Positions 4,550 to 63,823 of a stretch of 64,000 bases of DNA are shown in pieces. Numbering within the stretch: the first letter of the stretch is position 1; every line of letters begins with the position of its first letter. A program made the position numbers and the translations under genes. The stretch spans positions 35,543,042 to 35,607,041 of the forward strand of contig OX421966.1 of assembly GCA_949128115.1 (NCBI GenBank), given 5' to 3'. Under the pieces are notes generated by a model. The model did no database searches. It was not told the origin of the DNA and worked only from the letters and a program-made list of their open reading frames with translations. Source of the DNA: Anaspis maculata. Lineage: Eukaryota > Arthropoda > Insecta > Coleoptera > Scraptiidae.

Positions 4550-6740
4550 TAGTGCAGTAAAGATAGTCAAAAAAGACCCCAAACCTTGAAAAAATTAATT
4601 CATGAAATTTTATAGCAGATATCGATTCAGAATTTCATTCTTTACCACATACTCAAAATCCCCGAAAATCCCAGTTGAGCATTCTTCTTGCGGCGCTGTC
4701 AAAGTATATCATGTTTGCTGCAACTAGTCCGAAAATGGTATTCTTGTTTTTGTCACACTAGAGCTACATTGTCGGCTTAGAACTATTGGTATATACTGCA
4801 GAGCATGACCAGACCTTCGTTTAAACCTCTAACTCGTATTTCCCCCCCAAAAAAACACGGAAGTCGCTTTAATTTCCAATTAACAGTGTTGATTAAGTAT
4901 AATCCGAGAGTTAGTAACCAAGTTTATTACAATCTGTTTGATTTGTGATAGAGACATGAAATTTGGTATGAGTGGTCTTCATGGTCTTTTTTCCAAATGT
5001 AAACATGACGCCTCGCCTTATTTTGAGTAGGGGGGCCTAAAGACCCCCTTGAAAATTTGAAGTCTCAGGAATCTCAGGAATAACTCTCACAAACCACCGG
5101 TAAATATCGTCACACATTTCAAAAAGTAATCATTTGACTCTACACCAAACCTTGACAAGAGACACAATAGTTGTCGCCATGTACGCATTGTTCTTCGTGT
5201 TAAAAAAAAATTCTTTGGAGTGTCAAAGAAAAACACAGTTTCCAATGATTTTTCAATCTAAGAAACGGTAAGTTAATCTGCTGTGTATCATTATTCACTA
5301 ATTTGTATTTGCCGAAGCTATTCATAGAGTCTGTTTTTTGATATTGTCATTCTAGGGATAACAGCTCCCGAAGAAATGAGCCAATTCAAGTGTGAAGTTC
5401 AACAGCGTTTTTTGATTGTTCCAAATCAATATGATCGACAATTTATGAATGGATGGATAGCTGGAACTGTTTTGTGACCTAATTTTATATGACTACACGT
5501 GGAACCAAGCGCAAAAGCATAGGAGAATTTTTTTTTGCGTCGCTCACCATTATAAAATTTGTGCCCCTAGGGTGTGTTGAAAATATTTCTATACCGTGTA
5601 TTCACTCGAACTGAGTGCTTTGAAGTATTCCACGCCTCAATCCTTATTCTTTGTGCCTTCTACTTGACAACTGCAGATCGTATTGACGTTTGTCTATACT
5701 CTTTAGTCTGTATTCGCTGTTGTTTCGCCAAAGTAGCATGAAATTTGGTGCAATTCTAACAATGATAGGTGGCGGTAAAAAAAAAAAATTCGGGGCTTTT
5801 GCGCATCACTCCTCATCTAGTTATACTCAATAAAATTATAAAACAGTTGAAGCTATCCACCCAATAATAAATTGTCATTCATATCAATTGGTAACATCGA
5901 AAAAAACGCTGCTGAACTGAGAACTTGAATTGGCTAGTTTCATCTGGAATTGAAGCTTCTAGATGTCAATATGAAGAAATGGACTTCATCAATGGCTTCG
6001 GCAGATACGAATTAGTGGATAATGATATGCGGAAGATAAATTTATTCATCTATTACATGAAAAAATTATAAAAACCTGTTTTTTTTTGACATTCCGAAGA
6101 TTTTTTTTTATTATGAAGAACAGTGCGCACATGATGACAACTGGTGTGTCTCTTGTAGAGATTTAACGTAGAGTCAAATGATTACTTTTTGAGATGCGTG
6201 ACAATTATTTTAATGGTGGTTTGCATGAGTTTCTGCAACTTCAATTTTCAAGGGGGTCCCTAAGCCCCCCTAACCAAAATGTGGCGAGACACAATGTCTA
6301 CATTTGAAAATGGGGCCATGAAGACCACTTATACCAAATTCCATGCCTTCATCACAAAAATAACAGATTTTATTAAATTTGGTCACTAATCCCCGAACTA
6401 CACTCGATTACCACTGGTAATTGCAGAATAAAGCGAGTACGTCTTTTCTTTTGCGGGAAATAGGATTTCAGCGGTTCAGATGACGTTCTGGTCATGCCCT
6501 GGAGTATATACCAACAGCTCTGAGCTAACAATATAGCTCTAATGTGACAAAAGCGAGAATACAATTTTCGGACTTGTTGCAGCAAACATGATATACTTTG
6601 ACAGCGCCGCAAGAAAAATGCTCACATGGGATTTTCGGGGATTTTGAGTACATGGTAGAGGATGAAATTCTGAATCGATAAGAGCTTAAAAATTTCATGA
6701 ATTGATTTTTTCAACCCCAAAACCTATCTTTACTGCACTA
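4550..6740. mobile_element. foldback element with ~1-kb inverted arms (E1)
   Basis: The two halves are inverted copies. The left end TAGTGCAGTAAAGATAG is the exact complement of the right end at 6724-6740. Arms run to about 5545 and from about 5765, leaving a ~220-bp loop. Direct GTA trinucleotides at 4547-4549 and 6741-6743 look like a 3-bp target duplication. Segments such as the one around CAAAGTATATCATGTTTGCT (4697) and its complement near 6580-6600 show the arms are similar but diverged. No long open frame exists, so it is non-autonomous. A second terminus-like pair inside (about 4900 and 6401, TAGTTCGGGGATTAGTGACC on the minus strand) suggests one foldback nested in another. Confidence 0.85.
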
Positions 6741-6743
6741 GTA

Positions 6744-7245
6744 CCAGAATGGTTTGGAAACTGAGACTTGATTCTGATAATAAGTTTTTGGAGCCTATAA
6801 ATTGTAAACAAGAAGTATTCTAGGTATTGTAGAGCCAATGCTACCCAAATAGCCTACCCGATGCTGATATCCACGTGCCCAAGTCAAGTCCTAGTGAAGG
6901 CGAGTGACCTTCAGTAACAACCATCACTAACGGTTATCCAGGGAGTAACATTAGAAAAAGCTCGTAAAACTGAAGAAGTTGAGGGATGATTTTGCGCTCT
7001 AAAGATTAAGAACAGTTAGGGCAGTTCTATAGAGCGACATAAAGAACGTCAAGTATTTGTCCCAGGTCGATACATGAGCTTGGTAAAGGGCAAAGTCAGG
7101 AGATTCTCAAGAGGGTGACCCTGTATTGGCTTTTACATTTTCCAGAGAAGGCGAACCCGCCTGTGTTTCAAACTCCATGCGTGAAGCTATCCTCGCTCAT
7201 AAAAAAAAATTACTTCATAAGATCCAAAGACCACGTAGAGTAATT
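6744..7245. other. AT-rich intron DNA
   Basis: No coding signal or clear repeat is visible between the foldback element and the next inverted pair. Confidence 0.35.
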
Positions 7246-7251
7246 ATGAGA

Positions 7252-7707
7252 GTTGAAAGTAGAGGTAGATAGTTCCTTCTGGAACAATTGAGGAGGGTTT
7301 CAACTGCACATTTGCGGAATAAGAGGGAGGGGGAACTATGATAACATCTCTCATAATAATGTTACGAGCGGCGATTCCCGTGCATTCTGGTAAACACGCG
7401 ATCTTTCTGGACTCTTTCATTGAGTTGCAGCGTACAAATGCGGAGCTCCGGACATTTCTAGAGCATACGTGATGGCTTGGCATTGGAATACATGGGGGGA
7501 CTCCAACGCTCGATCAAGACACATCTGTCCATTTGGTGGCGGCACCGGCTCTAGGGCACGGCAGAATTACACGCGAAATACGTAACAATAATAATCGAAT
7601 CTTATTGCTTTGAGATGTTATCGTACCTCCCCTTTATTCCGCATATGCGCAGTTGAAACCCCCCTCAATTGTTCCAGAAGGAACCATTTACCTCTACTGT
7701 TGAAAGG
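7252..7707. repeat. inverted repeat pair, arms about 105 bp
   Basis: The left arm (7252-7360) contains GTTGAAAGTAGAGGTAGAT and TTCCTTCTGGAACAATTGAG. The complement is at about 7603-7707. The arms are roughly 80-90% alike by eye and separated by ~240 bp. This is probably a degraded palindromic DNA transposon. Its nearest edge is ~220 bp from GALNT exon C. Confidence 0.65.
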
Positions 7708-7925
7708 CTTTTCGCGCAACTGAACTTACTCTAACTTCCAATAGTCGAGCTGTGAGAACCCAGTTCATAATATTTTGGCATTACAGGAACATTCTACTCT
7801 TATGCTACGCACTCCAATGCACTCACGAAGCCAATGGACTGACGAAACTGCGCTTCTTATAGCAGAAACTCGCCTCTGCGAGCTGTGGCAATATTACTAA
7901 GACCTGACACTCTTGATAGACGCAC

Positions 7926-8242
7926 CTTATCGATACTGAAGAGACCGCCTGCCATCGTCGGGCTGTACACCGGTTCGGCGGTATTTTTGTGCCGCTTCTT
8001 TTCGTGTTCGGGAACGGCGTGCCAGTTGAACTGCAAGTTCCAATCGAAACCGCCGACCATCACGCCGGTGCTGTCGTGGTAGTGGAACTCCAGTGTCGTG
8101 TCGTCGATGACATCTATGACGGGACACACCACTGTGGTCGGATCTCTGGCTATCCTGTCCAGCAGCGGTTCCAGCCATCCGATGGAGCATTCACAGTGCG
8201 AATCGAGATAGGTCAGCACTTCCCCGGTGGCATGGGCGGCGC
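7926..8242 (-). CDS. Pgant: GALNT/Pgant internal exon C (GT-A domain with DxH metal site)
   Basis: This 317-nt internal exon on the minus strand begins after TATTTACAG and ends AAG before GTGCGT. Two bases complete a Gly from exon B, followed by 105 codons ending in phase 0. It holds AAHATGEVLTYLDSHCEC. DSH here is the DxH motif that coordinates Mn2+ and the UDP-GalNAc diphosphate. It continues with GWLEPLLDRI, TTVVCPVIDVID, VGGFDWNLQFNWHAVPE and PTMAGGLFSIDK, all in family order. The next family block (YDPGFDIWGGEN, the Gal/GalNAc-T motif) would be in the following exon. I did not find it between 7925 and 1, so it is probably beyond the window edge. The catalytic residues visible here are intact, which suggests a functional enzyme. 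Confidence 0.96.
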
Positions 8243-11200
8243 CTGTAAATACAGCAGCGAATTAAATTAGAAAATCGGGTCCTGTATGCGAATTATACAT
8301 AGATCCCGTACCCACCCACCCACGTTCTAAATTTGCAACCCGAAGCAATCAAGCCTGTCCAAATAACAAACAAAAACAAAATAAACACTGCAGGACTGAC
8401 GAGGAGACTATTGTACCTAATCGATTAAATGGAGCGAAAACGGTATAACCGCCACCTGGTCGTGCGCGCTACGCTCAATTGAGAATTATCATATTGTCAG
8501 GTGGAATTGGAACATTAGCGTTGCCTCATTGCACGCGGAATTCATGCCACAGTTTTCTGGATGATGGTACACTTTGGCATTGCGAAAGACGAGAATAATA
8601 GCAATCTACAACGATGGGAATCTATTAAGATTTATGTGGAGTACAGCTTCACGATATGAGTGTTTCAGTTTCGGTTTTGTTTTTGTTATTGCACCTAAAT
8701 AGCACTTGCGGCAGAGAAGAGCTTGAGGATTTTATTGTTGCTGACGGAATGATGAAGAAAATTACATGGATAGAATATGAAAACATCTTTTCAGAAGATT
8801 CTTCATTACAGTCCATGGAGCAACAGAGGCAAGAAGCAAATATAGTGTGATCAAATAAATTCGCTATTTAAACAGACTGTGTTCTAGATAGCCAAAAGAA
8901 GCTTCACGCCTCGAAATTTGACCAGATCACATCAGCCTGTCTATATGAGATATAGCAATGATAATAGATATTTGCACTTTCCAGTTCCATTATTAGTGAT
9001 TTGTGCAATAGGTATATTCCTGGACGCAGGCGCACTGCAGTCGATAAAAGAGTGAATCTCACGCACACAAGTGAGATATATGAGAGTTTCCATGGAGATT
9101 CAAGGAGCAAGCGATTGTTTCTCTCCCCGATCTGCGCCTGCGCTTTGAACTTTCAATATAGTCTGTAGAATGACAGATGCCAGTTTTGGTAACAACTCAA
9201 TGGTAAATGTTGAGAGGGGCAAGGCAAATTAGATAGAAATATAACTTTTTTAAAAGGGGGTGTGGCGGCTTTTGGAATTTGTTTCTATTGGTGGAGTTGC
9301 TTTCATTCAACAGCACAACCAAAAAAAAACTTCATGCGAAAATCGCGGCAGATGAGAACTTCCAAGTACCGTTACCTACAATCCAAAGACTATTCAGAGT
9401 CAGTTTTTTTATCTTCAGATAACTTTACCTGAAAGTTTAATACCATAGTTACTATAATCGTTTCCATGGTGTTAGCCTTTCAATTTAGGGATTACCGTCC
9501 CTAGAATGAACAAAAAGACGTGAACATAGTGAACAGGCTTCCCGGGGGTGTCCCTCTTTGCGCCCCCTCCCCTCAAATGGCGCCTATGGTACCTATCAAC
9601 AGTGGGACAGAGTTGTTAGATTGACGGAACATCTGATAGAGCATAATCTTGGACGTGTTATTATATGTTCGATAATAGTTCGAGATACGCCTTGACAAGC
9701 CATGCAGTGTAATTCATCATATCCTTCGGGGCTTCGAGCTTGCTCATGCTGTCTATGTTGTTATATACTACGAGTAGGAGGTACATGCCCGACAGAACTT
9801 GGAATATCTTTCATCACGTTATCACGTAATTATTAGGAGGTTACTATACCTACCAAAAGTCTACTGTCTGATGATTCCCTGCTAGTTTTAGTTTGATTCT
9901 TTACGTTGACGTTATCCAGTGAATATATTTCATTCATGGTGCAGGTAGGTGCTTTGGTGCTTCCTTTGTTTTTTCTTTCGCTTTGCCAAAGATTTTGTTC
10001 AATATTCGCTGGAGATTCCGATTCCGGGATTAGCGACAAACCTGGAGATTTCGATCTAGGAATGAGACACAAACCCGTACAAAATTGGTGGAGGAGCCGT
10101 TCAAAGGCTTACCACATTCATCAGCTGAACTGCTGGACTTTCCCAGAGCTCTCCTAAACTTAGATCAAATTAGGGGACTTGACTCCCGAAAAGCTACCAA
10201 GATGTAAACAAAATATCGAAGAATTACAAAGAAAAAGCGTTCCGTATAGTATGGCAAAGCTTGAAAACCGTTGAAGAAAAAACAAAAAAGGACAATCGAC
10301 TCAACTAAACTGCGCAACATTGAAGTTGTCGGGGTCCAAAAAGTCGCTCCACTCTGAAACCCAGTATCTAACTTGTGACTGCCACAAACGATTTAGATTT
10401 TGTCTTCAGAATTTGTTTGTTAACTCAACATTTCGTGATCCATCATGTAAAATTGAACATAAATAGATCGCAAAAAATTATACAACGTATTTAGCCAGAT
10501 CTCAGCAGCTGAAACGAAGGTGTGAAGATGGATCCATAATTCTGGAAACGGTTTTTTAATTATCCTGCTACTCTTGCTGTTTTTTCCTACTGTTTTTTCC
10601 TAGCGATGTTTTATTCTGGATTAACATGGATACTAAATATTTTTTCTCTTCGTGAAATAGGTATAATTTGCGCTTTTATTGGAAAACAAATATTTGAAAG
10701 TTACCAAGATCATGATGATAATCTGTATATTTCATTTGAGGGTGCTGCAATTTTACATCTGACTTATGCAGCCAGTAAACAGCGGTGAATTACTGATTGC
10801 CTGATGCTTACCGACTACAACGTTGCCATATTAGGACATAAATAGAGCGGCTCTGATACCGATTTATAATTGTTAAGAGTCGCGATTTACATGAAATGTA
10901 TTGTTGTTCACATTAAATTAAAAAAAATTATAGACAAACTAGTTTAGTTAAAAAAAAAAAAAATTGCGTGACAAGCAAACAGATTCAAGCCATTCCGTGT
11001 CAAAAACTGTACGCGTTTTTAAAGGGCAATCACTGTACTTTCCTCACAAACTCTTCATTTTTCATGGAGACCACAGTGAGGAGCCAATAAAACCAAGTAA
11101 CACAACTTCATAATGGCGGCAACAACTTCCTTCTACCTCTCGTTCTGCCCGATTATGGATTTGACAGATGACAGTCATAAAACTAATTAGCCCATTTTAC

Positions 11201-14150: not shown

Positions 14151-15365
14151 CAAACAGGATTTCACAGAAATTGTATGTGTGATGTGATCACGATACACGT
14201 GTGATCCACAAAATTCGTAATCAGGGCCCTGATTGGAGTCCACCCGGGTGACTTCGGAAACGCGATGTTCATCGATTCAAGTGACTAGATTGGTTAAATG
14301 ACTGAATTTTTCACCTTCAAAGCTATCCTAGATTACGAATGGTTCAATAAGTACACGGTATGTAAGAGAGACAAGTACAAGTAGGTACGTAACTATCTGA
14401 AGCTATCAGTCCCTCTTTTCCCGCCAAATGCTGAAACCAAAGTTAACCGCAACGTTTTAGCGAGAAATGTCAGATGTCAAAAAAATTACAGTATATTCTG
14501 TCAATCTAATATCAACCGCTAATAACTAACCGGTTACAAAAAGTTACTCGCTCGAAAAAGACTCCTGTCTGTAAAGCAGATTTCAAGTCGATCAGATCAA
14601 CGGTTTGGCAGCTATCATGTCAAAACGTTCTCCATGCATCCTGAATCATTACATAACTTTCCTTTGGACGGGCCGGGAAAGTAAAATGCCAAGATACAGC
14701 AAATTATGTCCGGTTCCACCATATACTGGTTCCACCAAATTATTATTCAAAGTAACGCGACGTTGAATGGTATTTCCGAGGGTATTTTTTCTAGTTAATT
14801 GACAATGGAAATTCCTGACAGTGCGAGTGCCCAAAACACAAAGGTGGATCATCTGTCTATTTATTATCTGGCGATATTATGGACTACCCGTGGTTGAAAT
14901 TAAATACAGCATTGGCCAGAAAAAACAACTCAAAGGTACGAATTGTATAATCTTCAGCTATAGCGTAACATCAAGAGACAAGGTGCAATGAACTTCAATG
15001 ATAAAACTATTGCCTATAGGAAAGGTGGGTATCGTGGATTTTTTGCCATTAAAGGCCAATGACGTTGTGGTAATTGTTTTCTTTGACAGCAATACATTAG
15101 CTATGACAAATTGATAATCAATGTATGCCGTATTTGAGGACTTTATACCCACCTACCACCTAGGGCGGTTACATACAATCATCAGATACCTTATGCTACT
15201 TAGGTGCTGAGGTCACAATCAATCCATTTGTCGACCTAGTTGTTGTTTAGCCTGCTTATACAATATACAGCATCATGCAGGATTTATCTGGTCTAATCAC
15301 CAAGTAACTACGGTCCTCAGGGGCCAAGAATGCTTCTCGAGATCCTTCTATACGCGAAGACTCAC

Positions 15366-15637
15366 CTAACAACCTGGCTCTGATGAGTCCTTCGCGCTTC
15401 TTGGCCCTCACGATCTTGACCTTCGAATAGTCCTTGAAGTACGAGACCAGCTGTCCCTTCAGATGGTCCATGTCGGAGAAATCGTCCACCAGGATGATCT
15501 CGTGGATCAGATGTTCCGGCGATCGGTCCAGAATCGAATGGACCGTCCGCAGCAGCACGGACCATGCTTCGTTGTGGAAGCACACTATCACGGAGGTCGA
15601 CGGCAGGTCTTCCAAGTGGCGACCCGGTTTCTTGCAC
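15366..15637 (-). CDS. Pgant: GALNT/Pgant internal exon B (GT-A domain, nucleotide-binding half)
   Basis: This 272-nt internal exon on the minus strand follows a TTGGTTGCAG acceptor and precedes a GTGAGT donor. One base completes the Trp codon from exon A, then come 90 codons, then one base (G) that joins GC of exon C to make Gly. The reading contains [20 protein letters not shown], the first conserved GT-A block that helps bind UDP-GalNAc. It then has [20 protein letters not shown] with the conserved VDD, and [12 protein letters not shown] at the end. Length and order match the family with no gap between exons A and B, so no exon is missing in the 43-kb intron. No stop or frameshift is seen. 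An open frame continues past the donor but loses family similarity there, which supports the junction. Confidence 0.96.
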
Positions 15638-15638
15638 C

Positions 15639-18601
15639 TGCAACCAAGAAATAACCGATTATCCATCGATTACGAGTAATGTCCATCAAGAGACCATGGA
15701 TGATGACAAAAATAATTTCACAACACCGTAATACATTGATGTTTTAGGTGTTCGGTACGTCATAATTACAATGTAACATTATTATATTGCACGTCGCAAC
15801 AACGCGCGTAAAAGTTCAAAGTAAATGAAGCGGAAAGGCAGTTTTACACAATGGTTCAATGGTATTATCAAGATTCCCAGTAAAGTAAAAGTACGGTAAG
15901 ACTTTTTCTTAAGAATCTTTTCCGAGAACACCAAATCGAAGCTTATATTGAGAGAATCTTTGATAATAATATAGCGCTGATGATGGGATGGGAGCGACTG
16001 GATATGAGATTCAGCGATCTCGGAACTTCTGCAACATTGGCCCAAGTTCTGTCATCAAACATAACGGTTTGAATTGACTCAATTTGGGGCGTAGAGGTAC
16101 TTAATTATGATACGAAATTGGGGTGCCGCAGACCATTACAATCAGGGTAATTGGTAATTGCATCGAGAGAAAGCAATTACCGTATAAGCGATTCGTCAAG
16201 GGCAAGGTGGCACGTACCGTGAGATTTGGCGAATTAAAATCAGAGTTCATGAAACTCTGCTTGCAGTCATTCTGTCAACAACAATAATGATAATAATAAT
16301 GATAATGATTCAGGTATATATGTAGCGAGATCAGGCACTAGGTTTAGGTATTTCATTTGTAGCACAAAATGTCGAAAGGCATTTATTACCTATCCATAAA
16401 ATTTTGATGACGCTACGGGATGTTATTTTCATGGCAATATAAATGAAAACACATAATTATTACGTTTAATGTATAGGCAAGGTCTGAATAAAATATATGC
16501 ATCAGAAAAAAATGATTATCGGTTTTACATCGTGTGGTTTCAAGAGAGAAGTTCATGGTTGTGATATTGACTTTTTTGTGTCTATTATTGCGTAACCTTT
16601 CGGGTCGTGACTCGTAATCAACAACTACTGTGATTTCAATTTCGCGAGGTTTTTAAGAGTAATATTAGTATGCAATTAGTTTAGGTGCATCGGCTTATAG
16701 CATGAAGCTTACAGATGAGAATGCAAACGTTTCTGCCTACAGTTTGGCGGGATACGAATTAGATGGTCGGAAACGACACCAAACGAGTCAATTTAAGATT
16801 TGTTCGCATAAGAAATGGAATATACCAGCTCACTAATATTTCTGATTTGCCATTTTTTGTTCAGATCCTACGCTACGTTTCACATTTTCCTTCCACTCTT
16901 CCATACAGCGCAGCGACGGGGTGTTGAGGATAAAGTGTTTATGCTGTCTTCCCAGAAGTGTTGTTGAATATTGTTCGATCCCTCGTGATCTCGCTTCTGG
17001 TATGGATTATGCGATTCTCCGATAACGAAATGTGGCGGTGTCAATAGCAACATGTCATTAGGATCATTTCGAATATAGAATGGGAGTTTGATGCCGCTCC
17101 AATGCCACGTCACAATATAATATACCTTTCTCATTACTTGTAAGTCGGTTATCACCAATTCAACTACTCGAGCATTTTAAATAATATCTTCAAAGTTTTC
17201 TGTCAATTAAGGGCCAATTTTTTAGAATAGGCAGCTAGTCTGCACTTGTGTATAATGTGTTGCATAAGAGAGTAGTTAGTTTGCTCTAATGGTGTTATGT
17301 TGATTATTTTGAAAAGCAGCAGTTATCGTTCTTTGGCCGTTGCCAGAACAGTTTGCACTTTCTAGAGAAATGGAGATTCGAGAATAAAAGCTGTGTTTGT
17401 GAAAAAAAGAAGAGCAAGTGTTTTTTGAAGAGTTCTTATAACTATTTGGCGCCCAGCTTGGAGCCAAAATCTAGTGTTTTTGAGGTTGTAATTTTTGTCG
17501 TATCTGAACCAGCGACATAAGCTGAAAAAATTAATCCTCGTGACGTCACGAGCAGCCGCCATTATACGAACCATCGAACCAAAACAAAGTGACAAGTCTA
17601 CTAGCTGAATAACCACCTCTCTGTGAATAACAACTACTATCCGCTGTAATATCAGTAATGTCACTAGTAGTTTGACAGCATGTGATGAAAACAGCGTGCA
17701 CAGTCCCGGAATAAGGAAGGGGCCTTGGCTGCTAAAACTCGGGCTAATGAGTTGTAAAGTTGTATTCTATTGAGTAAGTGTAAAACATTTTAAAAGCATC
17801 AATAATCGAATTCCAACCAAGCAAGTACAAATACAGTCCTTTTAGTCTTATGAATAATTCGTAGGCCAAAAAAATATTTCAATCGGGTCTGTTCTCTGAC
17901 CAATCTCAAAGTCATGAATCATGATGTTCCAAGGTCAAGCCAAAATGGTTCGTGTGTTGTGGATTGCATACACAATTCATTGGCATACCCCTTCTCATTC
18001 GCAGCTTCAAGCTACACCACCCAGAAGTTGGGTTGTGCCCCCTCCTACTATAATTATAACCTCCTTGGTGCTTCACTGTTTGTGCTTTATGCTTTCTCGT
18101 CGCGAATTCGTGAATTCCCATGACTTTTGTACTGTTTCGTCGCGTTTATAGCCGAAGCGGATTTTGAAGCCCTAGGATGTATTTGAAACTACGTCGTTTC
18201 TGCAAAAACACCACAAATCATATTTTCTTAATTAGGCGGAGTTTTTTAAAATTGACAAGTGAGATTTTCCCAAAAAACGCCTACATTTTTTGGAAAATAA
18301 CATTAAACCAAAGTAGGTAGGTAGGTGAAGAAAAGATGGCATTGGCATTATTTCACAGTTTTTGCAATTTGTGAATTTGTGAGAACGAGCCGATTTGGCG
18401 AATTAACAATCAACGATATCATTGACAAAAAATGTCCCTGCGAATGCTGTTAGATTATAAGTTGAAAAATTACGTGTGAAAACAATTCCGTGTATTTAGC
18501 GTCAAGCAGGACATCTGTCAGGTAACACTACACCAACAACGCTGGCAGCCAACCGAACAAAGAAATATTTTTGAATTTCTGAATTTAGCGCTGAAAAGAC
18601 C
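15639..18601. other. unique-looking AT-rich intron DNA
   Basis: I see no gene, RNA or strong repeat here. A short ATA/ATG-rich simple repeat lies at about 16283-16310. Confidence 0.35.
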
Positions 18602-21774: not shown

Positions 21775-21777
21775 TAA

Positions 21778-28071: not shown

Positions 28072-30851
28072 TAGTCCTAGCGGTATAAGTAAAATTTCAT
28101 AAAAATGGCTCTAATTGTGACAAAAGTGTGAAATTTGGTGTGTGGACTCCTTAAAGCATTTGAAAGGTTTTTAGAAGGGGAGCCAAGAAAAATTTTGATT
28201 TTGATTTTTTAATTTTTTGTGACGTCATTTTTTTCATTTTTTTTTTCATTTTTGCAACTATTCAAGATGTTTTACTTTTGCTTTTGTATTATGGTGAGTA
28301 ACTGCTTAATCCAAGAAACGGAAGAGAAAATTTGCGAAAAAAATTAACTGAACTGAAATGATAGCGTTTTTTGTAAAAATCAATTTTTTCCATTTTTTTC
28401 AAAAAATACTGTGAATATGTGAAAAATTAAAAAAGGAAATATCCCTCAAAACAAGCCCTATCAGAAGTTATGAAAGTGTTTTAAAAATTCCAAGCCGTTT
28501 TTGAGATATTTGGAAATATGTTATTTCTTGCGACTGTTTCTTCGTATTAGCTTCTATTTCATTAAACATATAACAGGGTTCTTTGTTCTTGAAAATATAC
28601 TTCAGAATGATCAGACCGAAGATTTCTCAGAAGTTCATTGTAAATTGTAATTTTTCCAGTGGCGTAGATCATAAAAATTCAAATCGTTTCTACCCTCTCA
28701 CCATACTTTCTACACCACTCGATTATTTGAAAAATACATGACATTTTGGCATTATGATGATCATCCAAGATCACTTAGCATGACACTTCATTTGAAAAGC
28801 ACACAATTTTTCCGCTGATCAGACCGGCTGCGAAACAATGTATAAAAACCCGAGTATTTTACATCACTGAATTATAGTCCTAGCGGTATAAGTAAAATTT
28901 CATAAAAATGGCTCTAATTGTGACAAAAGTGTGAAATTTGGTGTGTGGACTCCTGAAAGCATTTAAAAGGTTTTCAGAAGGGGAGCCAAGAAAAATTTCG
29001 ATTTTGATTTTTCAATTCTTTGTGACGTCATTTTTTTTTCTTTTTTTTTTCTTTTTGAAACTATCCGAGATTTTTGACTTTTGTCTTTGTACTATGGTGA
29101 GTAATTGCTTATTCCAAGAAACGGAAGAGAAAATTTTTGAAAAAAATCAATTGAACTGAAATGATGACGTTTTTTGTAAAAATCAAACTTTTCAATTTTG
29201 TGTGAAATGTGAATATGTGAAAAATAGAAAATGCAACTATTCCTCAAAAAAGCCCTATCAGAAGTTCTTGAAGTGTGTCTCCAAATTCCAAGCCGTTCTC
29301 AAGATATTTGGAAAAATGTTATTTCTTGCAATTGTTCCTTCGTATTAGCTCCTATTACATCAAACACATCACAGGGTTCTTTTTTCTTAGAAATATACTT
29401 AAGAATGATCAGACCGGAGATTTCTTAGTAGTTTATTGTAAATTGTAGTTTTTCCAGTGGCGTAGATCGTGGAAATTCGAACCATTTGTACCCTCCCAAC
29501 GTACTTTCTACACCACTCGATTATTTAGAAAATATATGACATTTTGGCATCATGATCATCTAAGTTCACCTAGTATGACACTTCTTTTGAAAACAAGATG
29601 AGATCGACGATCTTGAGCACACAATTTTTCCACTGATCAGATCGACTACTAAATATTACTTTTTTTTTAAGTATATTAAGTAACATTTATTAATAGGTAA
29701 ATTTTACAAAGATAATATAGTAATAAAAACGGACATTACATTTTGTATCACCTCCTCGATCATCTCCATCATGACTGTTTTAGATACATAATAGTTTATT
29801 GTTCCCCCAAACTGAAAATTCTGCACTTTATCAACAGTAAAGTTGGTTGAGTGGCTATCACTGGCGTCGAAGGCATACATGTCATCGCATCTATTTTGTA
29901 ATTATTGCGGTTTGGAACATAGGAACATACCTACCTATTTGTTTGTAAATATTTGTATTTTATTTGACAAGATGATCATCAAAAGCCACCTGTTATGACA
30001 TCCTATTCAAAAACTCTAGGGGGGGGACAATCAACTATAATTTATCTGAAACAGTCTTGATGGAGATGATCGAGGAGATGATACAAGATGCATTGTTTCG
30101 CAGTCGATCTGATCAGCGGAAAAATGGTGTGCTTTTTAAATGAAGTGTCATGCTAAGTGATCTCGGATGATCATCATAATGCCAAAATGTCATGTATTTT
30201 TCAAATAATCGAGTGGTGTAGAAAGTATGGTGAGAGGGTAGAAACGATTTGAATTTTTATGATCTACGCCACTGGAAAAATTACAATTTACAATGAACTT
30301 CTAAGAAATCCTCGGTCTGATCATTCTGAAGTATATTTTCAAGAAAAAAGAGCCCTGTTATATGTTTGATGAAATAGGAGCTAATACGAAGAAACAGTCG
30401 CAAGAAATAACATATTTCCAAATATCTCGAAAACGGCTTGGAATTTTGAAAAACACTTCAATAACTTCTGATAGGGCTTGTTTTGAGGGATAATTGCCTT
30501 TCTTAATTTTTCACATATTCACAGTATTTTTTGAAAAAAATGGAAGAAATTGATTTTTACAAAAAACGCCATCATTTCAGTTCAGTTAATTTTTTTTGCA
30601 AATTTCCTCTTCCGTTTCTTGGATTAAGCAGTTACTCACCATAATACAAAAGCAAAAGTAAAAAATCTTGAATAGTTGCAAAAATGAAAAAAAAAATAAA
30701 AAAAATGACGTCACAAAAAATTAAAAAATCAAAATCAAAATTTTTCTTGGCTCCCCTTCTGAAAACCTTTTAAATGCTTTAAGGAGTCCACACACCAAAT
30801 TTCACACTTTTGTCACAATTAGAGCCATTTTTACGTGTACCGCTAGGACTA
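28072..30851. mobile_element. foldback element with three arm copies (E2)
   Basis: The left end is TAGTCCTAGCGGTA and the right end its exact complement at 30838-30851. TTT flanks both sides (28069-28071, 30852-30854), fitting a 3-bp target duplication. The ~785-bp arm occurs three times: direct at 28072-28858, direct again at 28875-29658, and inverted at 30067-30851. The middle copy carries an extra ~90-bp AT-rich insertion after 29655. A shared stretch around CCTCGATCATCTCCATCA (29750, inverted near 30070) shows that the second and third copies form the foldback and the first is an additional truncated arm. It has no transposase. Confidence 0.85.
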
Positions 30852-30880: not shown

Positions 30881-32503
30881 TAGTCCAGTCAAATTAAGCA
30901 AAAATCTGGCCAAACCGGAAATAAATTCGGAAGTTGACGAAATTTGGTGGATCGATGCAGAATTCAACGTGGAATAACATACTGAAATTCCCGAAAATTC
31001 CAACGCTTGGCTTTTTTCTGGGACCAATAAAAGAGCGCCATCCTTGTAAATTTTCGATTTTTTCTGAATAACTTGTAAACTATCACATTAAGAACCCAAA
31101 AACCAGCGAAGCAAATGTAGCCCGTTAAATTCTCAAGAGATCAGTGTTAAATTCATCACTTTGTGGTTAATAGGCTCTAAGATACAGCGCCTACTAGAAC
31201 GCAGTGAAAATGACTCAAAATTTATTTCCGGATTTTACGTAACAATTTGCATAGTGTCAGTTCAGGGGCTGTAACGTGGACTGAAAATGTGCGGATTTCA
31301 ACGTGTTTCACAGTTTTGGAAAGCCAATTCAACATTCGTTATCACACTTTTGTCCAGAAGTCGCCAACTTCAAAATGGTACTTTCCCTCAACCTTTGAAA
31401 TCGATACTTGAAGTCCCGAAGAATCCCCAAAGATCGATTGTTTTGATACCATGCCATCCGCCTACTTTTCCAAGTAGAGAAAAACCATCCAGGGAATATG
31501 TGAAGAATTGGATACCAAAACCATAGGATGTTTCAGAATGTTTTTCCCAGTGATGGTTCCTGAGTTGAATGGGTTGAAAGACTAAAACGACCTATTTGGA
31601 GAAAAAGATAGGTAGTCCGGACACTAACTGCTGAATACTGTACGGATCTTGCATTTGATGATACAGAATGGCACTCAGCAGACGTAGTGAATATACTTAT
31701 GTACTTTCCACGTCTGCCAAGTGGCATCTTACACCTAAAATGCAAGGTTCGTACAGTATTCAGCAGTTAGTGTCCGAACTACCAAATTTTTTTCCAAGTA
31801 GGTCGGTTTAGTCTTTTAACCCATATACCTCAGGAACCATCATTAGGAAAAAGATTCTGAAACATGTTATTTTTTTGGTATTTAATCTTTCACATATTCT
31901 CCAGATGGTTTTTCCATACTTGGAAAATGAAGCAAATGGTATGGTATGAAAATAATCGATTTTTGGGGATTCTTCGGAACTTCAAGTATAAATTTGAAAG
32001 GTCGAGGAAAAGTACCATTTTGAAGTTGGCGACTTCTAGACAAAAGTGTGATACCAAATGTTGAATTGGCTTTCCAAGATTGTAAAACACACTGAAATCC
32101 GCACATTTGCTGTCCACGTTACAGCCCTTGAACTGACACTATGCAAATTGTTACGTAAAATCCGGAAATAAATTTTGAGTCATTTTCACTGCGTTCTAGC
32201 AGACGCTGTATCTCGTAGACTATCAACCACAAAGTGATGAATTTGATACTGATCTCTTGATAATTTAACGCGCTACATTTGCTTCGCTGGTTTTTGTATT
32301 CTCAAGGTGATAGTTTACAAGTTATTCAGAAAAAATCGAAAATTTACAAGGATGGCGCTCTTTTATTGGTCCTAGAAAAAAAGCCAATCATTGAAATTTT
32401 CGGGAATTTCAGTATGTTATTCCACGTTAAATTCTGCATCGATCCACCAAATTTCGTCAACTTCCGAATTTCTTTCCGGTCAAAACCTATTTTGACTGGA
32501 CTA
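30881..32503. mobile_element. foldback element with TTA target duplication (E4)
   Basis: TAGTCCAGTCAAA at 30881 is answered by TTTGACTGGACTA ending at 32503. TTA is duplicated at 30878-30880 and 32504-32506. The arms are ~800 bp and highly similar, for example around ATCGATGCAGAATTCAACGT (30953) and its complement near 32440. The central part includes a further hairpin around GTACAGTATTCAGCAGTTAG (31747). The element starts only 30 bp after the end of the preceding foldback. Short frames within it are unsupported. Confidence 0.85.
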
Positions 32504-33604: not shown

Positions 33605-34957
33605 TAGTCCGGGGGTTAGTGACATGAACCTTGCACTTTGTGACAAAAGCACAAAAATTGGTAGGATAGTTCACAACCTTAACAGCATCAGTCACCATGT
33701 CGCTATCGTTCTTCACTGTTGAGAAAAATAAAGTCTTTGGCTGGTACGAAAAATTTGTTTTAATTTTTTTTTTCACCTACAAGAACATGAAAAATTGGCG
33801 CGTTTGATCTTTTTTCCCACATTTCCGCATCAGCTCATTCCATGTATGAAGTCGAAAATGCGAGAGACCAATTTTCGGGAGAACGCCAAGCAAAGAAGTG
33901 AGCAATTTTCACTGCCCAGTTCAACAGCGGTTTTTTTTAATATTCCCAGTCGATATTACTGATACCATTACCAGAGAAAAATAGGTTGGACTATCCTCTA
34001 ACGATATTTCAAAACTTCAAATGGGGACCCACACGTAAAAATCTCGTGGAATTTTTTTTATCAAGAGCGGTAAGAAGGTTTTCAGCTCTCAGTTGTACCC
34101 ATTCCGGGGAAAATGGAGCAGGTAGCTGCAAAAGTTTTCTGCACAACTGGTTTTCACGGCAAGCAGTGCTATTATTATTTTGGACCGGGATCCTCTTCTT
34201 CAACTTTACTCGAGTAGACCCTTTTATGAGGTCCTGGTCCTTGACAATGAGTGTTTAAGCCGCATGTTCTGAGCAAAGTACTTTTGGCAGTCCCTATCAC
34301 GCACTTGCACAGTCCTAGAGGCATTTTACCGCCCTCAATAAAAATTAGTCTACGGGATTTTTGCGTGCGGTTCCGCATTTAAAATCTTGAAATATTGTTA
34401 GAGGATAGTCCAACCTATTTTTCCCTAGTAATGGTATCAGTAATATCGATTAGGAATATTAAAAAAACCGCTGTTGAACTGGGCAGTGAAAATTGCTCAC
34501 TTCTTTGTTTGGCATTCTCCCGAAAATAGGTTCCTCACATTTTAGACTTTATACATGGAATAAGCTGATGCGGAAATGTGGGAAAAAACATCAGACGCGC
34601 CAATTTTTCATGTTCTTGTAGGTGGAAAAAAATTAAAACAAATTTTTCGTACTAGCCGAAGACTTTATTTTTTTTTAACAGTGACGAATGACAGCGCCAT
34701 GGTGACTGATGCTGTTAAGGTTTATAGTGGAGTCATACGTTTACTTTTTATTGGATATAGCGATATTAATAAGTGGTTCCGTAGGAGCCCCACCCCTTTC
34801 AAATTTCAGGGGCCCTTTGGCAACCCCCCGAGAAAAAATCTGCGTGGCGCTTCGACTCAATCGAAAGAGCAAGGTCTTGTGGACTGTCCTACCAATTTTT
34901 GTGCTTTATCAACAAATGCAAGGTTCACTTGATTTTTGGTCACTAACCTCCGGACTA
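33605..34957. mobile_element. foldback element with TAGTCCGGGGGTTAGTGAC ends (E9)
   Basis: The left end TAGTCCGGGGGTTAGTGAC is answered by GTCACTAACCTCCGGACTA ending at 34957. Arms of ~420-560 bp match, for example around CGCATCAGCTCATTCCATGT (33826) and its complement near 34554-34573. Flanks are CAC and CAA, a weak or mutated 3-bp duplication. The loop (about 34026-34394) has no transposase. A similar terminus is found inside E1 near 6382-6401. Confidence 0.75.
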
Positions 34958-37921: not shown

Positions 37922-38297
37922 TACAGTATTACACTTGATGGGTGAGTCAGCAAAAACCTCTGAAAAAATTGATGAATGGACGTAAATTTTGGTCCTTTTT
38001 TTTTGAAAATTTTCAACTTATCTTATGGACCAAAAGCCCCCAAAAATTTTATTATCTTACGACCACATTTTCGATTAAGAGGATGTTTCCACACAAAATC
38101 CCGTTGGTTTCATTCATGTACCTTATGACTTAGATTTTTGCCCCTTTTTTCAAAAATTGACTAACCCTTACCAGCCTAAAGCCCCTGGTCAGACATGCGT
38201 AAGACAAAGAAATTTCAACAACCTTATCAACACACATTTGACCTTTACTATCATGTACCTTATGACGAAAGTTCTGAGGCACCAGCTCCCTGTCCAG

Positions 38298-42163: not shown

Positions 42164-42252
42164 TTTTTAAATTACTTTCAAAACACAGTTTTAGTCAAGT
42201 TCCGGTGATCATGACGTTATGGCGCGATGTGGCGGAAAAAAAGTGGTGTCTT

Positions 42253-42322
42253 GCCCCGAGCGGGAATCGAACCTGCGTCTTCCATTTGCCGGATGGGTAC
42301 TCTACTACTAAGCTACCGAGGA
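42253..42322 (-). tRNA. tRNA-like gene or tRNA-derived repeat, anticodon GGC if folded
   Basis: On the minus strand 70 nt fold as a cloverleaf. The acceptor TCCTCGG pairs with TCGGGGC (6 of 7). The D arm is GCTTAGTAGTAGAGT, the anticodon arm has loop CCGGCAA, and the T arm has loop TTCGATT with B box GGTTCGATTCC. The anticodon would be GGC (Ala), rare in eukaryotes, and position 33 is C rather than the near-invariant U. A pseudogene or SINE head is therefore more likely than a working tRNA. Confidence 0.5.
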
Positions 42323-46800: not shown

Positions 46801-48372
46801 CATAGGTATGTAAACTGATGGACAACGAAGTTGTCGGTATATCGTAAAAATGGTTCGACTTTGAAGACCAATAACTTCCGATTGCCGAATGCGATTTTCA
46901 TTTTGTTTATTGTGTTGATTAGCCCATAGTGCGGGCGCTAAGAGCCATAATCGGGATGAACCTTGCAAATGGTGATGAAAGCATGAAATTTGGTACACGT
47001 ACTCAGAATAAGCCCCTCTTTCAGATAAGAGGTGGAGCCACGCCAAATTTTCACCGAAAGGGGGCTCGGGGGGCTCCTGAAAGTTGAAGGTGCTAGGGCT
47101 CCCTCTAAACGGCTTATCAGTTCGTTTTGACAATTGAAAAGGAAACTTATGAATATATTGTAAACATTGACGGCGTTTATCGTATTGTCCCGGAAATTTT
47201 TATTATGAAAAAAAAAGTTCTTCGGCAGAACACACAAATTGGTTTTATTTAATTTTCACCCACAAAGAATTAAGAAGGAGATGTGCAACACGCTCATTCC
47301 CACAAATTCGTATATCCTCTGAATTTGTTTGTGGAGTCAAAATTTTGATGGTGTATCTTCTTGAAGAGGGGCATTCCAAAGAGTAAGCTAGTTTCAACCC
47401 TAAGTTCAAACAGAATTTTTCCAATGTTCGGAATCGAAATTACTGAATTCTTTCCAGCAATGCATACCCTGGACCCTTCTTTGGAAGTACCGCGTGCGAT
47501 TGAACGTGAAGTAAGTCCTTAACGAGGTCCTGAAACACTATTAGAATTTTTCTTCTGTGATGCTACTATCCACCCTCGACCGGTGAATTAGGTTTCTACA
47601 CAGCATGCGCGGAGTGTATACACGATGCAGGGTATTTTCTCGGTTCAGTCAAATTTTTTATGATTGAAATTGTGTCATAATATTGAAATAACGTGTATAC
47701 ACTCCGCGCATGCTGTGTAGGAACCTAATTGCCCCGGTCGAGAGTGGATAGTAGCATCACAGAAGAAAAATTCTGATAGTGTTTCAGGACTTACTCCACG
47801 TTCAATCGCACGCGGTACTTCCGAAGAAGGGTTCAGGGTATGCATTGCTGGAAGGAATTCAGTAATTTCGATTGATAACATTGAAGAAATTCTGTTTGAA
47901 CTTAGTGTTGAAAATAGCATACTCTTTGGAATGCCCCTCTTCAAGAAGATACACCATCAAAATTTTGACTCCACAAACGAATTCAGAGGATACGAATTTG
48001 GGGGAAACAACGTGTTGCACATCTCCTCATCGATTCTTTGTAGGTAAAAATTAAATAAAACCAATTTGTGTGTTTTGCGGAAGAACTTATTTTTTTCATC
48101 ATGAAAAATTTTCGGGACAAGACGATAAACGTCGTCAATTTTTACGATATATTCATAAGTTTCCTTTTTAATTGATAAAACGAACTGATGAGCGGTTTGG
48201 TGGGACCCCTAGCACCTTCAACTTTTAGGAGCCCCCGGAGCCCCCTTCCGGTGAAAATTCGGCGTGGCTCCACCTCTTCTCTAAAAGAAGTGCTCATTCT
48301 GAGTATGTGTACCGAATTTCACGCTTCCATCACCATTTGCAAGGTTCATTCACCTAGTGCCCCCACTACTAA

Positions 48373-49196: not shown

Positions 49197-49318
49197 TTAA
49201 GCTAGTTATCGCAACAAACAAAATGGAAATCGCAATCGGCAATCGGGAGATATTGGCCTCCAAAGTTGGACCATTTTTCCGATACCGACAACTCAACTAC
49301 GTTGTCCAGCAGTTTATA

Positions 49319-53844: not shown

Positions 53845-54210
53845 ATGCCCGTATATTGTGTGAAAAGTTGTCCGCACTAGTCCAAGGGAATATTTCCCTC
53901 AAATGTTTCGTCCTACGGTTTTCCTGCCGACGAAAATAAGCGAAATAAATGGATGGCCGCCACTGGAAGACACCGGCACCAGGAAGAATTTGAAGGCGAA
54001 CGAAACAATTTCAGCTGTTTTACAAGTTGCACAAAGCCAAAAGCGGGGTCACCCAAATTACCGTTCAAAGTGCTGGGAATGCTATCTCACCTTCCTATTT
54101 GGCGATTACCCACTACAACTTCACAACAAAACCTCAATATTTTGCTTCAGTTTTGGTGTGCTCACGGCACTTCAGAGTGGAAGATTTCTATTCATCCAGT
54201 GATAGGTACA
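53845..54210 (+). pseudogene. broken THAP-domain sequence
   Basis: From an ATG at 53845 the reading is MPVYCVKSCPH, then TAG, then SKGIFPSNVSSYGFPADENK and RNKWMAATGR. This fits the start of a THAP (C2CH zinc, DNA-binding) domain: Cys pair, FP and Trp. The end of the domain, VCSRHFRVEDFYSSS, is in another frame at about 54156-54200 and supplies the C-x2-H pair. A stop at codon 12 and a frame change (or a short intron ending TTTTGCTTCAG at 54148) separate the parts. THAP domains occur in P-element-type transposases and in host regulators. This copy looks dead. Confidence 0.65.
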
Positions 54211-54940
54211 AAGATCACGCTGAAAACAAATGCTGTTCCGGACATTTTCTTGAGAAGCTTGTTTCTTTTTCTGGCTCCTGTAGCACTCCGCTTTTACCTC
54301 CAGGTTATTCACAAGTACGTCTTCAAAATATCCTTTCACACTATACTTCATCCCCTTATCACGCTGGTTCCCCTTCATTTGATGCTTACACTACACTTTT
54401 GTAAAGAAGTAAAGCGTTGTCGAGTCTGTAGGTTGCAGGTTGCAGCGTGGCAAGACTTTTGGTTCTGTTCTACTGACAACTGATGACAAATTGTAACATA
54501 TCGTTGTCGGGGGTAATGACAAGGAGAAAGTCAGTGGCACTGACAGAGTTGCTACGAGAGATTGTGAGGCAAATCTAGCCAATGAGCGGCGATAGGAGGC
54601 AAAAGGGGCGTGAAAAAGAAATAGGTCCATTGCGAATAAATTGAAAATTCTAGCTACTAAAAATATAAATAATGTTTAACAAAGGACACTTCGCGAGTGA
54701 CCATCGCCTACTTGCTAGTGGCGATAAATTGTTTCTATTGGCTGGAAAGTGGTTTAACAAAATGCTTTTTTTCGACGCCGCTTTCAGTATTGAAGTATGC
54801 ACTCTTAAGCCAAAGAAGAGAGATAAAGTTTGTATCTTGTTGTCAGAAGTGAAACGTACACGAAGTCTCTCGGTAAAAGTTCGTGCACTTGACTTTCAAA
54901 GTAGGTGTTTTGAAGTGAATTTGACTAAGCGAAGTAAGTG
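54211..54940. other. intron DNA, nothing recognised
   Basis: The region follows the THAP remnant. Frames in it have no known domain. It may be the decayed rest of the same element. Confidence 0.3.
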
Positions 54941-54944
54941 CGTG

Positions 54945-61140: not shown

Positions 61141-61455
61141 ACGATGACACTGAACAACTTACAAAAATAATCAAAATATTGTAGCATGGTTTGAAAAAAT
61201 TCTTGCACCTCCAACTTTCAGAGACCCCCGCGCCCTACACAGGGTGCAAATTCGGCTAGAAAGCTGATTTGGTATGTCTGAGTCCATACTACAACTCTGT
61301 CATGTTGCATTTCTTAAACACAAAATGCAAGGTGAATCGCCTCAAAGACAACTTGGACATGTTAAAGCCGTGTACATGGACCTCGTCAGGTTCCAGTTGT
61401 ATTTTTTTGTAGACCCGGTCAGATCAAGTCAGGCAATCAAGTTCTTTGATTCGAA

Positions 61456-61658
61456 GACAGCTTGGACATGGTAAAGCCATGTAACATCGCATGGGGTCGG
61501 CACCATTGTTCGTACTATGCAACACACGTGCGTCTTGCACTCAGCAATCATTATTTGATATTGTTTTCAAGACGAGAATCTGAGCGCCCACAGTGGAACT
61601 TGAACCCACGATCTCTTGTGTAGTAGTCGAACGCGCTGATCACCACACCACAAGCTCC
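61456..61658 (-). mobile_element. 203-bp tRNA-derived SINE-like insertion
   Basis: The insert is bounded by 32-bp direct repeats beginning TCAAGTCAGGCAATYAAGTT (61424-61455 and 61659-61690) that differ at one position. On the minus strand it starts at the right-hand repeat with GAGGAGCTTGTGGTGTGG. It contains an A-box-like TGGTGTGGTGATCAGCGCG and a T arm with GTGGGTTCAAGTTCCAC (B box GGTTCAAGT). A tRNA-like head next to one flank fits a SINE. The flanking repeats are longer than usual for a retroposon target duplication. Confidence 0.6.
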
Positions 61659-61723
61659 TCAAGTCAGGCAATTAAGTTCTTTGATTCGAAAACAACAGGG
61701 ACAGGGTCAGGTGTTGTCGGTAA

Positions 61724-63823
61724 TAGTCGTCGCGGTACGAGCCTAAAATCGTCCAAGTTCTGCACTTCTAACGATTTCGATTATTTTTGGCACAGATGAT
61801 CATTGGACCTATTCAAGCGTTTTGACCCGCAGCACCACCAAATTTGCCCCTCAGGAACGGAGGGGTGGAGGACTCTTCAGAATTTGAAGCTCCAGGTCTG
61901 GTATGGTCCAATGAAGACCCACAAAGGCAAGTGAGTAGTCATTTCCAAATGATTCTCATCCGCTGATGTCGATTCTCACGTGAAAAATGAGTTGCGCAGT
62001 CATTTGACAAAGATAATTGGTAATAGTAAGAGATAAAGATGAAATCAAGTGGTCATCTAACTGAACTCTGTAGGGACTTGTTTTTTTGTGATAAATACAT
62101 GAAACTTGGTAGGGCTGTTCATTATTACTTACTTTCCAAATATGGAGGGAGCACTACGCGTTTTGACGCATGACGTCGCGACGCAATGTCAAAAAACATA
62201 GTGGTCGTCATTTCCAAAATAGTCGATATATTATCATAGTTCATTTGATTTCTTTCATCAAACCATATGCTTTCGAGATTCAATAACATATTTCTGTCGA
62301 CTTGAGGAAACGGTGGGCTACCAGTGGTGAGTCAGGTGTCTGCTAGAGGGAACTGTGAGGATTCTTTACCTCCAAATTTTCACGGTCAACATCTTTGGAT
62401 AAAACTATTTTCAAGTTTGTCGATACAAATAATTATGTCATCTGGTCAACATTCTCCATGTTTCGTCCTTCTAAGGACTCCTCAGTATGGTTTATACAGA
62501 TTTTGCAACCGCGCGAGATCATTCAGACTACCTAGTGAAGTGACCGATTCTGGGATACCGTTTTGTTTAAAATGGGTGAAGAAGGAATAAATGCAATTTC
62601 TGTGATTCTAGTGTTAGGGTATGAATAAAGTCTCGGATATGGATGAAGTAAATACGTCTGAAAAAAGCACCAATGTCAAAATCTTGAATTCTTGAATTCG
62701 ATTCCCGGCACAGTGCTTTGTGCTATAGAAACAAAGTTTCTCAGCTTGTGATATTTGAGAATCAAATTCAGCAAACTCCTATGACATAAGAAATGCCGAT
62801 AAGGATAAAAACAAACAAATAAACAAACAATAATGGTTCAATTATTTTATACGGTCTCATACAAAGCGGTTTCTTTATTTCAGTACGGTGGCATCGATAT
62901 TAACAGGCGATTAATCGTTGTAATAATTTATAGTTTAGTTTGTAAGAGTTGTGTAACCAAGTATGTACCTAATATGGTACAACATTAAAGATCACTTTTT
63001 TCCAGTAATCAAAAGTACCTTTCTGTGTGCCTTTCATTTGATCGCTAGATCTGTATAAACATACTGAGGAATCCCTAGAAGGACGAAACACGAGAAATGT
63101 TAACCAGATAACATATTCGTATGCACAGACTTCAAAATAGTTAATTTTATCCTCGGTTTTATCCGAAGATGTTGACCGCGGTGATTTGGGGGTGAAGAAA
63201 CCTCACAGTTCCCCTTACAGGCACCTGGTTCACCACTGGTAGCCCACCGTTTCCCCAAATCGACAAAAATATGTTACTGAATCTTGAAAGCATATGGCTT
63301 GATGGAAGAAATCAAAGAAATTATAATATTTCTATTGACTGTTCTGGAAATGGCGACCACTATTTTTCGATATTGCGTCGCAACGTCATCCGTCGGAACG
63401 CATGGTGCTCCCTCCATATTTGGGAAGTAAGTAATAATGAACAGTCACACCAAGTTTCATGTATTTATCGCAAAAAACAAGTTCCTACAGAGCTCAATAG
63501 ATGACCACTTGATTTCATCTTTATCTCTTATTATTACCAATTATCTTTGTCAAATGATTGCGCAACTCATTTTTCACATCAGAATCGACATCAGCGGATG
63601 AAAATCATTCGAAAATGACTACTCACTTGCCTTTGTTGATCTTCATTGGACCATACCAGACCTGGAGCTTCAAATTCTGAAGATACCCCCACCCCTCCAT
63701 TCCTGAAGGGCAAATTTGGTGGTGCTGCGGGTCAAAACGCTTGAATAGGTCCAATGATCATCTGTGCCAAAAATAATCGAAATCGTTAGAAGTGCAGAAT
63801 AATTTGGTGTACCGCTACGACTA
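61724..63823. mobile_element. 2.1-kb foldback element with TAA target duplication (E3)
   Basis: TAGTCGTCGCGGTA at the left is answered by TACCGCTACGACTA at the right, and TAA is duplicated (61721-61723, 63824-63826). Arms of ~790 bp run to about 62520 and from about 63040, for example around GGACGAAACAYGRAGAATG (complement near 62450-62468). The loop of ~500 bp has no transposase. It shares its terminal 14 bp, with two or so differences, with the element at 28072. Confidence 0.85.

Follow-up and report, generated by a model that had tools for sequence, protein, structure and literature searches.

The stretch of DNA analyzed here, referred to as the window, comprises 64,000 bp of the genome of the beetle Anaspis maculata (assembly GCA_949128115.1, contig OX421966.1, positions 35,543,042 to 35,607,041) and carries six large foldback elements with TAGT ends, which we labelled E1 to E6 (Table 1). 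The 3-bp target duplications of these elements and the unequal length of their two ends are the subject of this report. An earlier note on the window had listed five of them as one family; all five are real, but a sixth, E6, had been overlooked. The four foldbacks described there as starting with TAGT between identical trinucleotides (E1, E2, E3, and E5) indeed start with TAGT, finish with ACTA, match at 14 to 16 of their 16 terminal bases, and are flanked by exact 3-bp repeats, while the imperfect flanks reported for E4 differ by one mismatch, as do those of E6. When all 256 tetramers were taken through the same criteria, TAGT yielded 4 equal-flank pairs among 24 pairs, and ten other words exceeded it (5 to 24 equal-flank pairs), from 104 to 1019 pairs each.

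The arms of the window elements measure approximately 0.4 to 1 kb, as had been estimated, and the identity between the two arms of one element is approximately 95% in E2, 87% to 88% in E3 and E5, and 77% in E1. No stop-to-stop frame of at least 180 amino acids lies inside any of the six, in agreement with the earlier observation that none encodes a transposase. Two pieces of the interiors checked for Pfam-type domains gave no match, no systematic search of the interiors having been made.

Table 1. Coordinates of the TAGT foldbacks, their boxes, and their internal ends in the window. Distances are counted from the tips; TSD, target-site duplication.
Feature	Position	Strand	Ends or sequence	Flanking triplets	Distances and remarks
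E1 foldback	4550..6740		TAGTGCAGTAAAGATAG	GTA/GTA (TSD)	arm starts 37 (left) and 27 (right); weak box 55/45
Decayed E4-like ends inside E1	4900..6400		TAATCCGAGAGTTAGTAACC / TAGTTCGGGGATTAGTGACC	GTA/CAC (unmatched)	box 59 at both
E2 foldback	28072..30851		TAGTCCTAGCGGTA	TTT/TTT (TSD)	box 59 (left), 49 (right)
Box, E2 long end	28130..28139	+	GAAATTTGGT		59
Second internal left-type end of E2	28875..28942	+	TAGTCCTAGCGG...	TTA (left)	box 59
Box, E2 short end	30794..30803	-	GAAATTTGGT		49
E3 foldback	30881..32503		TAGTCCAGTCAAAWTA	TTA/TTA (TSD)	box 59/49
Box, E3 long end	30939..30948	+			59
Box, E3 short end	32446..32455	-			49
E4 foldback	33605..34957		TAGTCCGGRGGTTAGTGAC	CAC/CAA	long end on the right; box (2 mismatches) 49 left, 58 right
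E6 foldback	46927..48368		TAGTGSGGGCRCTARG	CCA/CTA	box 59/49; inside an older foldback, 46808-49319
Box, E6 long end	46985..46994	+			59
Box, E6 short end	48311..48320	-			49; one mismatch
E5 foldback	61724..63823		TAGTCGTMGCGGTAC	TAA/TAA (TSD)	degenerate box TATTTTTGGC (4 mismatches) 59/49

Genomic copies, target duplications, and empty sites

The 758-Mb assembly (50 contigs) was searched with pieces of E1, E2, and E3 as DNA queries, E4, E5, and E6 being represented by their single window copies. First-look candidates numbered 1825, 941, and 2665, respectively, and the best 40 of each were scored; these had 94% to 100%, 97% to 100%, and 96% to 100% identity to the query, values that overstate the identity of a typical copy because only the best were sampled. 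Among the 60 insertions for which both ends were read, window copies included, 53 showed an exact 3-bp duplication (E1 18/18, E2 17/20, E3 17/19, E5 1/1, E4 0/1, and E6 0/1), compared with a chance of approximately 0.018 per site for matching 3-bp flanks. For E1, 20 copies were fetched, both ends were present in 17, and all 17 had exact duplications, as did the window copy. All 30 E2 loci (window copy included) begin exactly at TAGT; right ends were sought for 20 loci and found for 18, and 16 of these displayed exact duplications, with L066 and L067 failing. A shorter E2 variant of approximately 1.2 kb (L049) has both ends and unmatched flanks (CGC/CTT), and is perhaps a recombinant relative of E2. 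Both ends were read at 19 of 20 E3 loci, including the window copy, and 17 had exact duplications, the exceptions being L082 and L095. The 53 exact duplications comprise 23 different triplets, with T the commonest first base, A the commonest last base, and G rare at positions 1 and 2; 19 fit TNA, 16 TWA, 3 CWG, and 3 ANT.

These results demonstrate for E1, E2, and E3 that the mobile unit runs from TAGT to ACTA and that its insertion duplicates 3 bp of the target. Neither conserved ends lying further in or out nor a duplication of another length was seen in these three families, the two outcomes that the earlier note had regarded as counting against its proposal. Its view of the foldbacks as one kind of non-coding element with TAGT ends and mixed 3-bp duplications, presumably mobilized in trans, is borne out. 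The arms of four other E1 copies are approximately 72% to 79% alike, and the same copies are 94% to 97% like E1 over their longest matches; since the arms have diverged (77% in the window copy) while the copies remain 94% to 97% alike, the foldback shape of E1 predates its amplification. The 16-base short end of E2 and E5 occurs 656 times genome-wide (315 + 341), compared with a single occurrence of the reversed control. A scan of 350 kb of fetched sequence found no TAGT family other than E1, E2, E3, and E5, and viral contigs gave no match to an E1 end.

Because these elements often land in the arms of other foldbacks, their pre-insertion sites are visible, the opposite arm or a paralogue being usable as the uninterrupted target. 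We compared 42 joined-flank sites (window E3 counted twice) with the fetched sequence. Thirteen alignments for 8 sites were displayed, of which the row for the E3 copy L083 was discarded because it was taken to show another E3 terminus adjoining the same flank, leaving empty sites for 7 insertions; a row for the E1 copy L027 was also dropped since it matched its own left flank. The cleanest empty site is that of the E3 copy L090, for which three paralogous stretches (two in L086 and one in L090; 89% to 97% identity) contain CTA once and no trace of TAGT...ACTA, and that of the E1 copy L028 is equally clear (85% identity). Alignments for the E1 copy L014 (three stretches), for E4, for E6 against the window, and for the E3 copy L088 are gapless at the junction at 76% to 83% identity, with the target triplet itself substituted in most. 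A 2-bp gap lies at the junction for the E3 copy L080 (74%), and a 1-bp gap lies nearby for E6 against L058. In the paralogue, the E4 target reads CGC, so that the E4 flanks fit a decayed duplication.

Unequal ends and the internal box

The left end of each window element was aligned with the reverse complement of its right end. The same anatomy was observed in all six elements, namely a terminal repeat of 15 to 19 bp (0 to 3 mismatches), a spacer, and the arm, and in all six, the stretch from the terminal repeat to the arm was longer by 10 bp at one end. In E3 and E5, the difference consists of several gaps summing to 10; in E4, the long end lies on the right, the opposite side from the others, with an extra single-base gap and an alignment that breaks up past position 71. 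The arm starts of E1 (37/27) are retained in 17 of 18 copies, L024 being unclear owing to substitutions.

We also applied a blind test to 18 foldbacks, in which arm edges were found without the tips and the best 14-base match further out was sought. An offset of exactly 10 was recovered in E1, E2, E3, E5, and E6 (14, 14, 14, 13, and 12 of 14 bases, respectively), and nothing was recovered in E4, whose arm-alignment edge is too far inside. The 12 other window foldbacks gave best matches of 8 to 10 of 14 at scattered offsets, none with the 10-bp offset (0/12). In this they behaved like random pairs, which reached 12 or more of 14 in 1 of 300 cases. In an earlier control, 12 other foldbacks had offsets of 0 to 6 and none of 10, a comparison biased by cutting at alignment edges instead of known tips. 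Nine control pairs in the 350 kb of fetched sequence likewise showed no 10-bp offset.

A short motif, here called the box (GAAATTTGGT), stands at 49 in the short end and at 59 in the long end, with 0 to 1 mismatches, in E2, E3, and E6. The 59/49 arrangement was found in every E3 copy for which both ends were available (19 of 19, counting that of the window), and in E2, the right ends were of the short type in 19 of 19 copies and the left ends of the long type in 30 of 30. Box matches near TAGT numbered 12, compared with 0 to 4 for eight control words, in a partly circular count. The earlier note had envisaged a transposase that recognizes only a short terminus; this part is not supported in that form, as the conserved part of the ends (terminal repeat plus box) extends approximately 60 bp inward and is not the same at both ends.

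The families also proved to be less separate than had been supposed. Their interiors had been said to differ, and the arms are indeed diverged (57% to 80% identity between families), but every family shows weak similarity in its arms to one or more of the others. The match between E4 and E6 covers 400 to 500 bp at approximately 60% identity (E down to 1.9e-31); E1 matches E4 (7.8e-12), E6 (1.6e-8), and E5 (1.3e-6), and marginally E2 and E3 (E 0.003 to 0.008). Grouping by tips differs from grouping by arms: the short-end tips place E2 with E5 (TAGTC[CG]TAGCGGTACA) and E1 with E3 (TAGT[CG]CAGT.AA.ATAG). Additional ends are present inside E1 and E2 (Table 1), the internal left end of E2 being found in 28 of 30 copies examined (with a damaged tip in L052) and not in L049 or L053. 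These internal ends indicate repeated stacking of ends, with the outermost pair carrying the flanking duplications. The surroundings of E6 are likewise nested, as another inverted pair lies at 48380-49189 within the foldback nest 46808-49319.

Candidate transposases and competing explanations

Matches to P-type transposase domains (PF21787) were abundant, with 147 matches when 150 of 201 candidates were scored, many of them in long open frames and forming several similar groups. One canonical P element was read, at 584-4036 of L099 (G000:C4:28190583-28194035); it has an 801-codon open frame with five P/THAP9-type Pfam domains, the terminal repeat CTTAGAATATAAAGATGACAGG, and the 8-bp duplication GCTTAAAT, and its ends are unlike those of the TAGT elements. 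It belongs to a group of at least 5 similar-scoring places, which is one P group among several. In the window itself, a broken remnant at 53881-54480 weakly resembles a THAP domain (E 0.0018, short of the cut-off) and may derive from a decayed P-type gene or another THAP gene.

The CACTA-type domain (PF02992, Transposase_21) gave 15 matches among 30 candidates scored, with open frames of up to 828 codons; one multicopy group has a frame of 429 codons. A copy of this group (L100) was read over 9 kb; neither end was located, and it is interrupted by a foldback. Its domain piece at 2579-3865 is marginal (27 bits, compared with a cut-off of 28.6), and the pieces at 4209-4811 and, past the foldback insertion, at 6663-7301 had no Pfam match and look like the remainder of a CACTA-type transposase. 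On the 5' side of this gene, eight copies of a 47-base repeat with a spacing of approximately 64 bp (1218-1713) are candidate subterminal transposase sites. The 7.3 kb of L100 contain no equal-flank TAGT/ACTA pair that matches at 10 or more of 16 bases. The foldback that interrupts the gene (L100, approximately 4780-6690) has TACAGGGTGTTT-like tips, as does a foldback at 35054-37923 of the window. In a CACTA-type copy, the 5' repeats are interrupted by a different foldback, with TAGGGTGGGCC tips and the 8-bp duplication CTGTATAC (L102, G000:C9:12928600-12929900), which we take to be hAT-like.

The earlier note could name no standard family for the foldbacks, and this remains so, as every superfamily tested failed at least one defining feature or stayed undecided. 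A section of one paper (PMC3310237) describes plant Mutator-like elements (MULEs) with tandem long terminal inverted repeats, in which an extra end amplifies with the element. E2 resembles them in its extra one-sided end and differs in superfamily and duplication; the 9 to 11 bp duplications given there for MULEs, and hence a MULE/Foldback assignment, do not agree with the 3 bp found here. PIF/Harbinger and PHIS elements, for which TWA, CWG, ANT, and TNA duplications are listed in the part consulted of PMC4482050, were rejected because the duplications of the TAGT foldbacks are too varied, with a mild preference for TNA. As summarized in a section of PMC10045372, IS3EU elements have TA..TA termini, a pattern that TAGT...ACTA fits, and a usual 6-bp duplication, which differs from that of the foldbacks, whereas Zator elements share the 3-bp duplication. 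No match to PF07592, which presumably represents the Zator type, was found in this genome or in 14 control genomes. Coral miniature inverted-repeat transposable elements with a TAGT match were set aside since the portion of their description available presents them as piggyBac-like. Among literature titles and the beginnings of abstracts, none was found describing TAGT-ended palindromes with 3-bp duplications.

The observed end anatomy and duplications lead us to infer an enzyme, its binding to the box, and a rule by which ends are paired. We estimate a probability of roughly 0.6 that the TAGT foldbacks are families of non-autonomous cut-and-paste elements that share one end design, are mobilized in trans by one transposase or by sister transposases, and rely on the pairing of a short with a long end. 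The transposase would bind the tip and the box, and the complex would assemble on one short and one long end, with boxes one helical turn (10 bp) apart, as in the 12/23 rule; the target would then be cut with a 3-base stagger. The similarity of the arms, which reaches 95% in E2, should allow symmetric elements to arise easily, and these would fail to spread. A pairing requirement of this kind would explain why the two ends remain different in length in elements whose arms otherwise form near-perfect inverted repeats, and the long arms may be tolerated passengers, not the recognition signal. The 12/23 rule involves two motifs and two spacer classes, with one of each per pair. RAG signals are like the TAGT foldbacks in having two motifs and two spacer classes, while RAG/Transib elements, with CAC heptamer tips and 5-bp duplications, differ from them in both tips and duplication length.

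Several observations weigh against this reading. The box difference in E4 is 9 and not 10 (49/58, two mismatches), and the box is weak in E5 (49/59, 4 mismatches) and in E1 (45/55, 3 and 2 mismatches, shifted by 4). The motif was defined on the same elements in which it was counted, and among E1, E2, and E3, it is only for E3 that box positions were measured outside the window. Inside E1, both decayed ends have the long-end spacing. Because the copies of one family share descent, their agreement shows consistency and does not amount to independent trials; the six families are themselves partly related by arms or tips, which reduces the independent tests of the offset to perhaps 3 to 6. Searches of the genome for named domains found no transposase with TAGT tips, and the pairing rule is consequently read from the anatomy of the ends.

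The closest competitor accepts real transposons with 3-bp duplications and regards the 10-bp difference as merely inherited from one ancestor, with no role in pairing. Common descent is possible given that all six families share at least one weak arm match, and the degenerate box in E1, E4, and E5 also speaks for this reading. However, arm identity within an element (approximately 95% in E2 and 87% to 88% in E3 and E5) exceeds the identity between families (57% to 80%), which suggests that the arms were re-made or homogenized after the families split, E1 with its 77% being uninformative on this point; nevertheless, the tip difference is still 10 bp in 6 of 6 elements and lies on the other side in E4. 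We judge inheritance alone to be rather unlikely. A Tc1/mariner identity, which would make the elements palindromes with a TA duplication, is suggested by the TA at both element edges and by 13 families of large non-autonomous elements (654 to 2199 bp, palindromic and often fully so) that are filed as Tc1-Mariner in the section consulted of a paper on the seed beetle Callosobruchus maculatus (PMC10849321). Those elements resemble the TAGT foldbacks in size and shape, a likeness by description from a section that does not give termini and duplications. With a TA duplication, the outer flanks would be expected to differ; instead, the three bases outside the TA were also duplicated in the 53 of 60 insertions, and no additional TA is present at the clean empty sites, so that this explanation is rejected as highly improbable.

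The identity of the enzyme is a partly separate matter. An enzyme of the CACTA type acting on unusual termini is compatible with the other readings and, because of the 3-bp duplication, is the leading named candidate, although we hold it to be doubtful. CACTA (En/Spm) elements make mixed target duplications of 2 to 3 bp, and the genome contains Transposase_21 genes with long frames, among them the multicopy group with its eight regularly spaced 5' repeats. CACTA elements end in CACTA...TAGTG, in contrast to the TAGT...ACTA of the foldbacks, which also differ in their kilobase palindromic arms and unequal ends; the 429-codon piece is marginal, and L100 holds no suitable TAGT/ACTA pair. The P superfamily, with the foldbacks as derivatives like Galileo, a relative of P as far as the source consulted in part describes it, has in its favor the many P-type domains of this genome. 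Galileo duplicates 7 bp, and the sole P element read duplicates 8 bp and ends differently. According to the relevant part of PMC7776569, the transposase site of the P element is separated from the terminal repeat by 9 bp at one end and 21 bp at the other, which is likened there to the 12/23 spacing of V(D)J recombination, and P elements duplicate 8 bp. The TAGT foldbacks would share the unequal spacing of a terminal repeat and an internal site, if the box is indeed a transposase site; the P element differs in its duplication, its termini, its 31-bp terminal repeats, and its own transposase gene, and we regard a P-type enzyme as very improbable. It is also conceivable, though somewhat unlikely, that the enzyme belongs to an undescribed lineage, neither P nor RAG, that independently evolved a short/long rule with boxes at approximately 49 and 59 from TAGT and 3-bp duplications, and that seeded kilobase palindromes with a conserved asymmetry.

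Should the pairing of short with long ends be correct, the TAGT foldbacks would be a third unequal-ended, helically phased system besides P and V(D)J, with a duplication length and termini of its own, and this would point to repeated evolution of such logic. Their many natural copies would allow unequal and symmetric ends to be compared. Some large palindromic elements have possibly been filed under Tc1/mariner since the TA at their edges was taken for the duplication.

Other features of the window

Pieces of a family-2 glycosyltransferase domain lie on the minus strand at 7860-8261 and 15259-15669. In a protein search with the first piece, the source-named relatives were polypeptide GalNAc-transferases, considering only proteins of similar length, and the best organism-named match was from Callosobruchus analis (81%). 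A 187-bp unit forms a nearly perfect tandem pair (41805-42163) that adjoins a tRNA-like match on the minus strand at 42252-42322.

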